From Strigamia acuminata (taxonomy: Eukaryota > Arthropoda > Chilopoda > Geophilomorpha > Linotaeniidae), in assembly GCA_949358305.1 (NCBI GenBank), contig OX442314.1, forward strand, positions 10,409,060-10,473,059: a DNA stretch of 64,000 nucleotides, given 5' to 3'. Under the pieces are notes generated by a model. The model was not told where the DNA came from and did not search any database. It worked only from the letters and a program-made list of their open reading frames with translations. Numbering within the stretch: the first letter of the stretch is position 1; the number at the start of each line of letters is the position of its first letter. Shown here piece after piece: positions 2,533 to 63,820 of this stretch. The translations under genes and the position numbers were made by a program.

Positions 2533-5500
2533 ATGTTTAGCAAGAAGCCGCATGCAGACATCAAAAAGTCGACGCAGAAGATCCTGGACTGCAAAAAGGA
2601 CACGGCAACTCGTCTAAAACACCTCCGAGTTGTCCTGGGTGAGTAAACAGCACGGAAAATGCCACCCGAAACAACACATCCCCATCGAGCAACTCCATTG
2701 AGCGTTGTGCGTACTGTGCATCCATTTCCTGCTCGTTCAATTGCAATTCCGCGCAATCAAAGCCAAAGTCGCTTTTCTTTTGATGACAATTTACCAAGTG
2801 TTGCTATGGAGTTGTTCGGTTTGTGTTGTTATTCAATTAAGGGAAGGAAATTGGTGTTTTCATTATTGATTGGTGTTAATTTTGGTTTTTTTTTCTTGTT
2901 TTTTTTTATTTTGCAGATAATGTCGATGTTGCAGAATCGAAGACGTTTTTCGAAGCGAATCATAGCCACATTTATTATATATTTTATGATCAGTTCATTA
3001 CTGTTGAAAATTGCATTAAACAAAAAGGTGGAGTGTTTGATTTGACGCAGAGGCGGATCAAGAAGACGTACAAAGGGGTGGACATTTCGGTTCAATTTTT
3101 CAAACAGAAAAAATGGATGTTTTGGGCTAAAAATTGGATGTTTTGGGTTAATAATTGGATATTTTGGGTTCAAAAATGATCGTTTTTGGCCTCAGAATGA
3201 ATATTTTGGTGTCAGAATGAATATTTTGATCTCAGAAAAAATATTTTAGACTTAGAATGAATTTTTTGGTCTCGATGAATTTTCGGTCCCAAAAATAAAT
3301 TTTCGGTCTAAAAAATGAATTTTTTGTCCTAAAAAAATGAAATTTTGGTTTAAAGAGGAATTTTCGGTTCAAAAAATGAATTTTCGGTTCAAAAAATGAA
3401 TTTTCGGTTCAAAAAATGAATTTTCGGTTCAAAAAATGAATTTTCGGTTCCAAAAATGAATTTTTGGTCCAAAAAAAATTAAACTTTGGTTCAAAAAATT
3501 AATTTTTTTATTAATTTTCCATGGCACCCCACTTGATCCGTCTCTGATTTGATGTTTGTTTTGTTGTTTTTGATGTAACACACCTGGCGGTCGCCATTTT
3601 TATTTCTTTCAGCTCATAAATCTCATCGGGAAGAATTGGACTCGGTTCTGTATATATTCGAGAAGATTATAGTTTTATTACCGGAATTATTAGCAAAGAA
3701 ATGGCAATGTCATAGTTTAGGAAGAATTATTAAAAAGTTGTTGCATCCTGGGAACAATTTCAAAGTGATTTAAAAATAGACGTATTTTTAAAATGATTTA
3801 AAACGTTGATTTTATTTTTTTGTATTTTTTTTCAGTTGAGACGAGAGGCAATGCGTCTTTTTCTTTTGTGGTATCAAACTTTGGGCGAAACTGCGCCGAC
3901 GGAACTTCATTATATATTTAGTTGTTTGGTTCCCGGAATACAAAATAAGTTTACGCTCGAATCTATAATTAGTGGCTCGATAGGAGCTGATAAACATTCC
4001 ACAGAAATGGGTAGAAAATGGATTTTTATTTTTATTTTTTAAATTAATTGATTTATACATTTTTTTGGAATAGTTGCTGTAAATCCTATTGAAATTTATC
4101 CACTTCTTCCGCCTCAGATTGGCGAAAAACAACTCGAAAATTTGACTCAATTTTTCCTGGAAAATCTTTTAGATTTAATGGTTACTCAAGTAATTTTTTT
4201 TTTTTAAATATTGTTTTTATTTTTTTTGAATATGATTGATTTTATTTTGATTTTGATTTTGATTTTATTTTTATTTTTATTTTTTAGGTGATTAGAATTG
4301 AGTGGCGAGATAAGTCTAGTTTTAAACAGCAAAGTTGTTTCAATTTCTTGTTTGAAAGGTTTAAAAAGCACTATTTATTGTTGATTTTTCCTGATTTTTC
4401 ATGGACTACTAGTTTATACAAGCCTAACTTAGGTAAAGTATTTATTGATAGAAAATCGGAGCCGTAGCAAACACGCATGTGCCAAAATGCACTTTTAAAT
4501 TTGGACAAAATTGTGTATTTTTAGACTAAATTTGGACACATTTGTACATTTTTAGACTAAATTTGGACAAATTTTGACATTTTTAGACTAAATTTGGACA
4601 AATTTTGACATTTTTAGACTAAATTTTGACAAATTTGGATATTTTTAGACTAAATTTGAACAAATTTTGACATTTTTAGACTAAATTTAGACAAATTTGG
4701 ATATTTTAAGACTAAATTTGTTTAAAATTTGCCATTTTTGTACTAAATTTGGGCAAAATTTGCTATTTTTAGACTAAATTTGGGCAAAATTTGCTATTTT
4801 TATACTAAATTTGGGCAAAATTTGCTATTTTTAGACTAAATTTGGGCAAAATTTGATAATTTTAGACTAAATTTTGACAAACTTTGATAATTTTAGACTA
4901 AATTTGTTAAAAATTGGCCAAAATTTAATATTTTTAGAGAGATTAATGACAAAATTAGACATTTTTAAACAAAAATTGGACAAAATTGGACATTTTTAAA
5001 CACTAAATTTGGACAAATTTTGACATTTTTAGACTAAATTTGGACAAATTTTGACATTTTTAGACTAAATTTTGACAAATTTGGATATTTTTAGACTAAA
5101 TTTGAACAAATTTTGACATTTTTAGACTAAATTTAGACAAATTTGGATATTTTAAGACTAAATTTGTTTAAAATTTGCCATTTTTGTACTAAATTTGGGC
5201 AAAATTTGCTATTTTTAGACTAAATTTGGGCAAAATTTGCTATTTTTATACTAAATTTGGGCAAAATTTGCTATTTTTATACTAAATTTGGGCAAAATTT
5301 GATAATTTTAGACTAAATTTTGACAAACTTTGATAATTTTAGACTAAATTTGTTAAAAATTGGCCAAAATTTAATATTTTTAGAGAGATTAATGACAAAA
5401 TTAGACATTTTTAAACAAAAATTGGACAAAATTGGACATTTTTAAACACTAAATTTGGACAAATTTTGACATTTTTAGACTAAATTTGGACAAATTTTGA

Positions 5501-8500
5501 CATTTTTAGACTAAATTTTGACAAATTTGGATATTTTTAGACTAAATTTGAACAAATTTTGACATTTTTAGACTAAATTTAGACAAATTTGGATATTTTA
5601 AGACTAAATTTGTTTAAAATTTGCCATTTTTGTACTAAATTTGGGCAAAATTTGCTATTTTTAGACTAAATTTGGGCAAAATTTGCTATTTTTATACTAA
5701 ATTTGGGCAAAATTTGCTATTTTTAGACTAAATTTGGGCAAAATTTGATAATTTTAGACTAAATTTTGACAAACTTTGATAATTTTAGACTAAATTTGTT
5801 AAAAATTGGCCAAAATTTAATATTTTTAGAGAGATTAATGACAAAATTAGACATTTTTAAACAAAAATTGGACAAAATTGGACATTTTTAAACAAAAATT
5901 GGACAAAATTGGGCATTTTTAAACTAAAATTGGACAAAATTGGACATTTTTAAACTAAAATTGGACAAAATTGGACATTTTTAAACTAAAATTGGACAAA
6001 ATTGGACATTTTTAAACTAAATTTGGACAAAATTGGACATTTTTAAACGAAAATTGAACAAAATTGGACATTTTTCGACAAAAATTGGGAAAAATAGAAA
6101 AATATCAATCACGTGAAAAAATAAAATTTAATCTCAAAAATTGACATAATGCAACGCTTGCTGCGGGGAAGTGCACAAAATCCTCATAATTTGTTGATTA
6201 ATTCATTTTACACGCAGATTTACCCGATCTCAGAGCCGACACAGAGGAGGAAAATAGGCTAGATTACGGTCTCATGGGGTCATCTTTAAATAAAATTGTA
6301 GTTATTCAATGGATTTCAAATTTCATTCACATGTGGAGAGTTGAAGTGCCAATTCGAACTTTAGTGTAATAATAATAATAATAATTTTAATCAAATATTT
6401 TTACAAATTTAAAATTGTTTTCTTTGATTTTAGACCTGTAGTGGACGATTCAACACCGCAAGATCAAAAAGGATTTGAATCGAGTGCAGAAAAAGAATCA
6501 AATTGTTCTTACAACAGTAGCGAGTATCCTACGTACATGGAGTACATGATCGCTAGAGATACCTTTTATTTTAATAGGGAGAATGTCAATTTTGTTCATG
6601 AAATATTTAGACAAGTAATTTGTTTGTTTTCTTGATATTTTTGTGGAATTTTGGTTTTTTTTTTTAAATTAATTTTAAATTGTTTTGTTTTTCGTTTTAG
6701 GCTTTCTTGTTATCGTCTGTTCACGCTTCAACTTTGAAAAGAGTTATATTGGTGTATAGGGATTGGATTGACAATAAGGTGCGTTCGTAATGATTTCTCT
6801 TGTTGGTTTTGAAATTTTTTTTTTGTGATGGTTTTTCTCATGTTTTTTTTCATTTTTTCATGTTTTATCATGTTTTTTCCATGTTTTTTTCAGTTTTATC
6901 ATGTTTTTTCCATGTTTTTTTCAGTTTTATCATGTTTTTTCCATGTTTTTTTCAGTTTTATCATGTTTTTTCCATGGTTTTTATGTTTTATCACGTTTTT
7001 TTTTTATGTTTTATCATGTTTTTAATATATGTTTCCATGTTTTTACGTTTTTTATATATTTCACCATGTTTTTTAATGTTTTCTTTGTTTTCTTCATATT
7101 TTTTCTTCGTTTTCTCATATTTTTTCTTCGTTTTCTCATATTTTTTCTTCGTTTTCTTGTGTTTTTTCTTCGTTGCCCATGTTTTTCTTCGTTTTTCACA
7201 TTTTCTACGTTTTCTTTGTTTTTCATTGTTTTTTCTGTTATTTATTTATTTTTTTTAATTTTTTTTTATTATTTCTCATGACTTTTTTCTTTTTTAAAAA
7301 TTGTTTTAATCTTTACAATTTCTTTTTATTAAATTCCTATAATTTTAATTAGAGTTTCGAACGACCAATTTTTATGTTGGAACCTTACGACGGTCTGTCA
7401 ATTCTTTCTCGAGACGGACAATGTAACTCAACTTACACGGAAGGACCGTTAACACCAGAGGTATACATTAAAATTAAAATTATTATTTATAAAAAGGAAA
7501 AATGCAATGAAAATTACTTTCCTTTTTAATTCAGTCAAAGGGTCGATTAAGAAATGATTCCTACCTCGGTGCAATTCATCGCGAACCTCTTCCTGTTCGA
7601 GCCGGAATGCAAAATACTTTGCAAGTATTTATCACAAACGCTGCCAACGTGTTTTTACTCGAGAGTAAATCGAGCAGTCAGAAATTATTGGAGGATCAGG
7701 TAATTCGATAATACGTCAATTTCAACGATTTTTAGTTTTTATATAAAAAATTTGTTAATTTCAGGTCGATTTGTGTAAACGGATATTAAATCTCTATCGG
7801 TTTATGGTAATGAACTTAACGATGGACCAAAAAACATGGTGAAAATGATTTTATTTTGCCAAATCATTTTTATTCTTCGTTTTTCATGTTTATTTGCATG
7901 TTTTTCTTCGTTTATCATGTTTATTTGCATGTTTTCTTCGTTTTTCATGTTTATTTGCATGTTTTCTTCGTTTTTCATGTTTATTTTCATGTTTTCTTCG
8001 TTTTTCATGTTTATTTGCATGTTTTCTTCGTTTTTCATGTTTATTTTCATGTTTTTCTTCGTTTTTCATGTTTATTTTCATGTTTTTCTTCGTTTTTCAT
8101 GTTTATTTTCAAGTTTTTCTTCGTTTTTCATGTTTATTTCCATGTTTTTCTTCGTTTTTCATGTTTATTTGCATGATTTTCTTGATATTTCATGATATTT
8201 CTTCGTTTTTTCATTATTTTTCTTCGTTTTTTCATTATTTTTCTTTGTTTTTTCATGATTTTTCTTCGTTTTTTCATAATATTTCTTCGTTTTTTCATAA
8301 TATTTCTTCGTTTTTTCATAATATTTCTTCGTTTTTTCATAATATTTCTTCGTTTTTTCATAATATTTCTTCGTTTTTTCATAATTTTTCATTATTTTGC
8401 AAGTTTTATCTTTGTTTTTCTTGATTTCTCATGAATTTTGAATATATTTTGTTGTTATTTTTCTAGGGAACAATTGTTGCTGGTTTTGCTGCAAATAACG

Positions 8501-63608: not shown

Positions 63609-63820
63609 ACAAGTTTTTGTTTTTGGGCATAAAAAGTTCATTTTTGGGCATAAAAAGTTCATTTTTGGGCATAAAAAGTTCATTTTTGGGCATAAAAAGT
63701 TCATTTTTGGGCATAAAAAGTTCATTTTTGGGCATAAAAAGTTCACTTTTGCATAAAATTCCAATTTTGGGGATAAAATTCCACTTTTGGGCATAAAATT
63801 CATAAAATTCCATTTTTGGG
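63609..63820. repeat. 21 bp tandem array
   Basis: About seven exact copies of AAAAAGTTCATTTTTGGGCA plus T, then degraded copies. A5 and T5 tracts are exactly 10 bp apart. Confidence 0.95.

Follow-up and report, generated by a model that had tools for sequence, protein, structure and literature searches.

Tandem arrays of the window

The DNA analyzed here is a stretch of 64,000 nucleotides (C1:10409060-10473059, the window) from a genome of 237.5 Mb in 157 contigs, and its subject is the set of tandem arrays, most of them AT-rich, that are spread along it. A RalGAP-alpha-like gene reaches from an N-terminal match at 2503-2643 to a C-terminal match at 20733-20861, and an INSM1-like zinc-finger protein is encoded at 33399-34985 on the minus strand. 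Arrays were located with Tandem Repeats Finder (TRF). Merging of its rows gave 32 blocks of at least 100 bp (Table 1), which total 15,084 bp and have zero overlap with five matched protein-coding stretches; the rows with a score of at least 50 cover 26.7% of the window. An earlier note on this DNA had claimed about 30 arrays, in agreement with the 32 merged blocks. The unit lengths that it gave were recovered at 20 bp (39.6 and 49.8 kb), 20-21 bp (13.4, 46.2 and 63.6 kb), 30 bp (21.2 and 25.1 kb), 31 bp (4.5, 7.9, 17.0 and 28.5 kb) and 41 bp (10.9, 37.3 and 48.4 kb), as were its named exceptions of 23 bp (31.9-32.4 kb), 36 bp (12.3-12.8 kb) and 157 bp (61.3-61.7 kb).

Eleven of the 32 blocks (7,277 bp) lie within the RalGAP-alpha span and fill about 40% of its 18.4 kb. 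The other 21 blocks (7,807 bp) come after 20.9 kb and fill about 18% of 43.1 kb, and the arrays are therefore not limited to the introns of that gene. The intronic placement proposed earlier is retained for the 11 blocks in the span, and array-bearing introns past 20.9 kb, where other genes are not modelled, are unsupported.

Unit lengths fall on multiples of about 10.3 bp

Two 10-kb stretches beside the window (the flanks) and 19 grid-spaced 10-kb pieces of the genome (the sample, 190 kb; 20 grid positions, of which 16 existed, plus three pieces added later) were analyzed together with the window. A unit was scored as following the length rule if it differed from a multiple of 10.3 by no more than 1.5 bp, for which a flat distribution of lengths gives an expectation of 0.33. 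AT-rich arrays were those with units of 17-65 bp and a GC content of up to 0.40. These limits were chosen after a first, weak look at 16 sample pieces; the length limit serves to exclude microsatellite-like units, and arrays outside the range are not in that count. The rule holds for 42 of the 51 AT-rich arrays of the window, for all 10 AT-rich arrays of the flanks and for the single GC-richer array there. Window units below 70 bp have a Rayleigh R of 0.78 at 10.25 bp (42 rows, with one array listed twice and the 157-bp array left out); Rayleigh p-values presuppose independent arrays, and TRF detection is uneven across unit lengths.

The same period is present in the placement of AA/TT dinucleotides. 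Spectral power in the window arrays is 609 at 10.25 bp versus 28-46 at 12-17 bp, and outside the window arrays it is 102 at 10.25 bp versus 74-81. The 10-bp power within units exceeds that of run-shuffled units, with a combined p of about 2e-13 over 42 window rows. The AA/TT autocorrelation check proposed with the original observation was thus passed in the window.

Exact 14-mers with three to five G/C letters gave a measure of the rule that does not depend on TRF, taken from the distance to the next copy and collapsed per 250-bp bin; events within one array are not independent. In the window and flanks 171 of 225 events lie near multiples (flat expectation 0.30), with distances clustered at 20-21, 30-31, 40-42 and 60-62 bp. 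A free scan of periods from 6 to 26 bp over 331 collapsed pooled events returned 10.25 bp as the optimum. Among 14-mers with at least six G/C letters, 52 of 60 events in the window and flanks are near multiples. These results confirm the array observation and extend it past the window.

A and T runs share one helical phase

Pairs of an A run and a T run in arrays occur 390 times at 9-11 bp versus eight times at 14-16 bp in the window and flanks, and 62 versus 10 times in the sample. Outside arrays, with introns and intergenic DNA pooled, the corresponding excess is 1.2-1.8 fold. Runs of opposite type are in phase, with a mean cosine of 0.32 versus -0.18 ± 0.08 for run-shuffled units in the window and flanks (41 of 61 arrays with such pairs) and 0.26 versus -0.18 ± 0.12 in the sample (13 of 32 arrays). 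Runs of the same type are also in phase, at 0.24 versus -0.07 ± 0.08 (47 of 61 arrays) and 0.37 versus -0.02 ± 0.11 (27 of 32 arrays), respectively. G/C letters sit half a turn off AA/TT, at 5, 15 and 25 bp. The A5 and T5 runs at 46.2 and 63.6 kb had been described as exactly 10 bp apart; in the consensus units the spacings are alternately 11 and 10 bp. Strict tuning to one helical repeat is unsupported, as the per-turn means range from 10.11 to 10.36 bp.

The order of the runs is biased. TTTAAA is found in three of 93 units versus 24.3 ± 3.6 expected. Counted as occurrences, the AAATTT:TTTAAA ratio is 317:68 in the window and flank arrays and 127:111 outside them; the contrast is weaker in the sample, at 50:28 in arrays and 320:241 outside.

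Curvature was predicted with a wedge model that separates A4T4 from T4A4 as expected. The 51 modelled arrays of the window and flanks have a predicted curvature of 83 degrees per 62 bp versus 40 for shuffled arrays and 60 for tandem shuffled units, and 42 of them lie above the median of their own null. Predicted curvature is clear in the window and flanks and weak in the sample. Together, the in-phase A/T alternation, the rarity of TTTAAA and the wedge-model values point to curvature as the trait common to the arrays.

To look for a shared motif, 99 AT-rich units from the window, the flanks, the 19 sample pieces and three loci fetched by similarity were scanned for enriched k-mers. The enriched words include GTCTAA (in nine units versus 0.8 expected), ATGCA (12 versus 1.8) and ATTTG (32 versus 12.9). 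None of the listed enriched 5- or 6-mers is present in most units, and a single common motif was rejected. The proposal that the shared feature is physical is supported by the in-phase alternation, the TTTAAA depletion, the half-turn G/C offset and the recurrence of the rule in the genome.

Occurrence of the rule beyond the window

The length rule is followed by 25 of the 32 AT-rich arrays of the sample (R 0.72), and only four of 14 GC-richer arrays lie near multiples. In the first 16 pieces, units of 12-70 bp with GC below 0.40 give R 0.46 (n = 30). Exact 14-mers with three to five G/C letters recur near multiples in 55 of 107 sample events (flat expectation 0.30), and those with at least six G/C letters show no excess in the sample (33 of 126).

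Pattern counts over the whole genome, for which no length or GC limits had to be chosen, included overlapping matches and used a single comparison range of 14-16 bp steps. T5-A5-T5 occurs 50,639 times at 9-11 bp steps versus 6,417 times at 14-16 bp (7.9-fold). Three T5 runs in a row, each followed by G or C, are found 14,207 times at 9-11 bp versus 1,020 times at 14-16 bp; the reversed patterns, which served as a control, give 3,805 versus 415.

The AA/TT spectrum of the first 16 pieces has a power of 223 at 10 bp inside arrays, together with peaks of 113-145 at 7, 9 and 14 bp that probably come from one 73-bp satellite. Outside arrays the power is 86 at 10.5 bp versus about 73. Because of the additional array peaks and the weak outside peak, the sample spectrum was not used alone. 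The array fraction per sample piece ranges from 0 to 0.51, and the two highest pieces hold a long satellite.

Copy number and relatedness of the units

The length lock increases with copy number, from 13 of 28 arrays with up to 2.6 copies through 23 of 30 and 27 of 32 to 22 of 25 arrays with more than 12 copies. Locking in the lowest class differs from that at five or more copies (49 of 57) with a Fisher p of 2e-4. This trend suggests a filter on growth or persistence. Unit size also shifts by about one turn between adjoining stretches of one block, from 31 to 21 bp at 7.9-8.4 kb, from 20 to 31 bp at 9.1-9.7 kb, from 41 to 30 bp at 10.8-11.2 kb and through 21-30-30-21-30 bp at 41.4-42.5 kb.

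The arrays had been called unrelated, and this part of the description does not stand for all of them. In the pooled window, flanks and sample, pairs above the 99.5% null threshold number 26 of 861 among 19-22 bp units (4.3 expected) and 16 of 630 among 28-33 bp units (3.1 expected). Judged from these sequence similarities, some related families may lie behind part of the length rule. The stretches 25004-25254 and 28515-28755, 3.3 kb apart, are related to each other in inverted orientation (74.6% over 256 bases, unit score 0.84). Among the genome matches listed, the 17.0 kb array has none elsewhere above 79% (40 of 125 candidates scored), and the best match elsewhere of the 9.5 kb array is 82% (35 of 35 candidates scored). 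A transposon origin was rejected for these two arrays, which have no close copy among those matches.

Other repeats, neighboring elements and host genome

A foldback-like family with units of 29 and 31 bp is located at L016:1108-1872, L032:2594-3240 and L009:8099-8231. One 18-mer of the family has 78 exact matches, which form 19 clusters when those within 1 kb of each other are joined; in 11 of the clusters, minus-strand copies precede plus-strand copies. The satellite at L033:1-1513 on C18 has a unit of truly 10 bp (ATTTTGACGG type) and is itself phased A/T DNA; similar matches occur on C5 near 15.8-16.5 Mb. Locus L032 holds a 188-bp satellite at 406-2416 and, at 8197-9956, one 33-bp consensus unit in three separate arrays within 1.8 kb.

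In the window, a long open frame at 53198-57280, by eye of the copia-like retrotransposon type, follows shortly after the array at 52.4-52.9 kb. Similar stretches at 25325-25440 and 25848-25919 enclose a short segment beside an array and, by eye, resemble what is left of a terminal-repeat element. The segment 45245-45673 is a dispersed repeat, matched at 93% over 431 bases in L015 and at 81% over 360 bases in L016.

The DNA had been guessed to come from an arthropod. TTAGG, the telomere repeat of many arthropods, is repeated from the first base of C1, and the exact C. elegans SL1 word was not found in the genome. A tree of the INSM1-like window protein with 29 of 120 listed matches groups it with crustaceans, a millipede and a locust, with weak support (66/61, midpoint root). 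These observations support the guess. Frames like cox1, cox2, cox3, nad6 and nad2 lie by eye consecutively on one strand of the mitochondrial contig C157 (L028, 15068 bases), and there is no space for atp6 between cox2 and cox3. Such an arrangement is unusual for an arthropod. A nuclear COX1-like fragment with two stops (L027, C8:11426194-11426376) shares its locus with a 20-bp phased array at L027:731-859.

Table 1. Array blocks of the window and the RalGAP-alpha-like gene
Feature	Position	Strand	Remark
RalGAP-alpha-like gene	2503..20861	+	span of the matched exons; PDB matches to Ral GTPase-activating protein subunit alpha-2
Array, 20 bp	3184..3506	.	
Array, 31 bp	4496..6095	.	inside 446-bp higher-order repeat; top predicted curvature among modelled arrays
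Array, 31/62 bp then 21/42 bp	6820..7215	.	
Array, 31 bp to 21 bp	7865..8390	.	
Array, 20 bp to 31 bp	9121..9701	.	top genome match elsewhere 82%
Array, 41 bp to 30 bp	10797..11183	.	
Array, 36 bp	12262..12845	.	rule exception
Array, 20.5 bp	13418..14138	.	A5/T5 alternating
Array, 31 bp	16880..17607	.	TRF 97% matches from 17029
Array, 20 bp	18159..18722	.	
Array, 20/40 bp	19582..20448	.	
Array, 30 bp	21195..21604	.	
Array, ~30 bp	23216..23477	.	degraded
Array, 30 bp	25063..25260	.	inverted relative of 28.5 kb array
Array, ~32 bp	25955..26159	.	degraded
Array, 31 bp	28539..28800	.	inverted relative of 25.1 kb array
Array, 21 bp	31706..31854	.	
Array, 23 bp	31927..32373	.	rule exception
Array, 20/40 bp	35648..36188	.	
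Array, 41 bp	37251..37415	.	
Array, 21/31/41 bp	38375..38624	.	
Array, 20 bp	39570..40189	.	A5/T5 alternating
Array, 21, 30, 30, 21, 30 bp	41411..42524	.	successive units
T-rich array, 16 bp	43540..43641	.	rule exception
Array, 21 bp	46186..46653	.	T5/A5 alternating at 11 and 10 bp
Array, 20/41 bp	47955..48142	.	
Array, 41 bp	48426..48560	.	
Array, 20 bp	49796..50558	.	
Array, 30 bp then 20 bp	52380..52926	.	
Array, 31 bp then 21-22 bp	59500..59901	.	
Repeat, 157 bp	61256..61655	.	2.6 copies; rule exception
Array, 20.6 bp	63620..63798	.	T5/A5 alternating

Discussion

The length lock, the helical phase, the in-phase A/T alternation, the depletion of TTTAAA, the predicted curvature, the genome-wide occurrence and the stronger lock at higher copy number were computed. 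On balance, the arrays are probably helically phased, curved minisatellites that arose locally and then passed a phase-keeping filter on growth or persistence. A or T runs on the same helix face every 10.1-10.4 bp or so would give the DNA an intrinsic curve and a fixed rotational setting. Local tandem duplication probably gave rise to each array, and arrays that keep phase, with units of two, three or four turns and switches of about one turn, would be the ones that amplify or persist. The filter could be selection for curved, rotationally fixed chromatin in a role like that of the periodic A/T clusters (PATCs) of C. elegans, or it could arise if curved DNA amplifies more readily. A chromatin or germline role for the arrays is a guess by analogy with PATCs. 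It is rather unlikely that helical phase is a heritable, selected trait of this genome, with minisatellites amplifying only if their A/T runs stay on one face of the helix, and that the arrays are a tandem equivalent of PATCs through which genes outside nematodes can be expressed in the repressive chromatin of the germline. The interpretation given in the earlier note is partly supported.

Several results weigh against the phase filter. When all 12-70 bp units of the first 16 pieces are taken, R at 10.25 bp is weak (0.33, n = 39, p 0.015) and a period of 9.0 bp fits equally (R 0.37). The genome-wide period histogram called for by the earlier note, as run on the 190-kb sample, accordingly has its peaks under the AT-rich limits and is weak with all 12-70 bp units of those 16 pieces. 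The copy-number trend was obtained at a low TRF threshold, and chance low-copy rows could create part of it; at this threshold nine of 22 GC-richer arrays are near multiples (0.41 versus a flat 0.33, with groups of fewer than three arrays omitted). Besides the exceptions named earlier, a T-rich 16-bp array at 43.5 kb breaks the rule, which makes four such window blocks in all. AAATTT is itself low, in 16 of 93 units versus a run-shuffled expectation of 24.5, and is high solely in relation to TTTAAA. The arrays show no phasing of TA steps, a feature in which typical nucleosome-positioning DNA differs from them. The predicted curvature excess of the sample is weak, at 57 degrees versus 39 for shuffled arrays and 50 for shuffled units, with 22 of 35 arrays above their null. 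G/C identity one turn apart is 37 of 52 (0.71 versus 0.51 ± 0.07 permuted) in 17-24 bp units and 88 of 138 (0.64 versus 0.51 ± 0.06) in 27-34 bp units of the window and flanks. Because these letters match above the permuted level, ancestral monomers of about 10 bp probably contribute to the length rule.

The main rival to local duplication with a phase filter takes this last point as the whole account. Monomers of about 10 bp with A/T and G/C would have grown into dimers, trimers and tetramers, or slippage would have re-paired adjacent A/T runs in register, and lengths would be multiples of 10 with no function or selection for shape. We regard this history as a possible but doubtful sole cause. 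It is favored by the G/C identity one turn apart, which lies above the permuted mean in four of the six classes and, in three of these, does so by about two standard deviations or more (17-24 and 27-34 bp in the window and flanks, 17-24 bp in the sample). The sample has 20 of 27 identities in 17-24 bp units and a barely raised 22 of 38 in another class, and the 37-44 bp classes show no excess (35 of 60 and 17 of 39). The shifts of about one turn between adjoining stretches (31 to 21, 20 to 31 and 41 to 30 bp) and the satellite with a true 10-bp unit on C18 are also in its favor. However, A and T runs alternate in phase, although copying an A run on the same strand does not give a T run, and the depletion of TTTAAA is not predicted by history alone. 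The lock is weaker in two-copy repeats (13 of 28), which come nearest to newly made duplications, and the recurrence of 10-bp monomers in different arrays is left unexplained.

Two other accounts are improbable. If the arrays were parts of transposable elements, as foldback-type inverted arms of tandem units, they would have spread by transposition, as the 29/31-bp family with its 78 exact 18-mer matches in 19 clusters and 11 inverted pairs and the inverted relatives at 25.1 and 28.5 kb might suggest. Among the matches listed, however, the best copies of the 17.0 and 9.5 kb arrays reach only 79% (40 of 125 scored) and 82% (35 of 35). One inverted window pair stands out among the top pairs listed, and the other inverted matches among the 46 rows compared reach 58-71% similarity, which A/T runs in phase might yield by themselves. 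Far less credible still is that TRF itself created the pattern, as an artefact, from the A/T runs of AT-rich DNA. Such runs alone can align low-identity arrays, and detection is uneven in unit length, but exact 14-mers with three to five G/C letters recur at the rule distances in the window and flanks (171 of 225) and the sample (55 of 107), and the artefact was rejected on the recurrences in the window and flanks.

If helically phased, curved minisatellites are indeed filtered in this way, so that shape over sequence governs minisatellite growth, DNA curvature would become a force in genome evolution that can be measured, and PATC-like DNA would extend beyond nematodes. The rule gives simple predictions for unit-length histograms and mutation spectra.

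Comparison with known systems

Drosophila FB foldback elements have inverted arms with tandem units of 10, 20 and 31 bp, and the unit lengths of the arrays are comparable. Unlike FB elements, the window blocks include a single clear inverted pair (25.1 and 28.5 kb) and are not generally paired as arms, and for the two arrays compared with the whole genome the matches listed include no close copy elsewhere. The arrays resemble ordinary AT-rich minisatellites and satellites in being tandem, with units in the range of 10-100 bp outside matched exons, and partly homogenised, as in the 446-bp higher-order repeat at 4.5 kb. They differ in their length lock, which the GC-richer arrays of the sample lack (four of 14); we know of no expectation of a helical length lock in minisatellites in general.

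Phased A-tracts of the AnTn type are curved and those of the TnAn type are nearly straight. Like phased A-tract DNA, the arrays have tracts in phase at 10.1-10.4 bp, strongly depleted TTTAAA and predicted curvature, and AnTn is favored over TnAn (AAATTT:TTTAAA 16:3 of 93 units). Whereas phased A-tract DNA is a feature of one locus, the arrays are spread across many minisatellites; their curvature is a model prediction, with a weak excess in the sample.

A nematode genome is the only setting known for PATCs. The C. elegans PATCs are A/T runs about 10 bp apart that are tied to oocyte-expressed genes, and in oocytes the runs lie on the cleavage-protected face (PMC3819648). PMC4818521 describes PATC content as accompanying chromosome-arm contacts, and PMC6417860, PMC11286205 and PMC7725773 describe protection from silencing. 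In contrast to PATCs, the signal of the arrays lies mainly in tandem repeats, with an outside excess of 1.2-1.8 fold, and the host genome is not nematode-like (TTAGG at the start of C1, no exact SL1 word in the genome and a weak mandibulate grouping). Like PATCs, which PMC3819648 and PMC4818521 place in introns and other noncoding DNA, the arrays carry A(n)/T(n) runs with a spacing of about 10 bp, and these span hundreds of bp.

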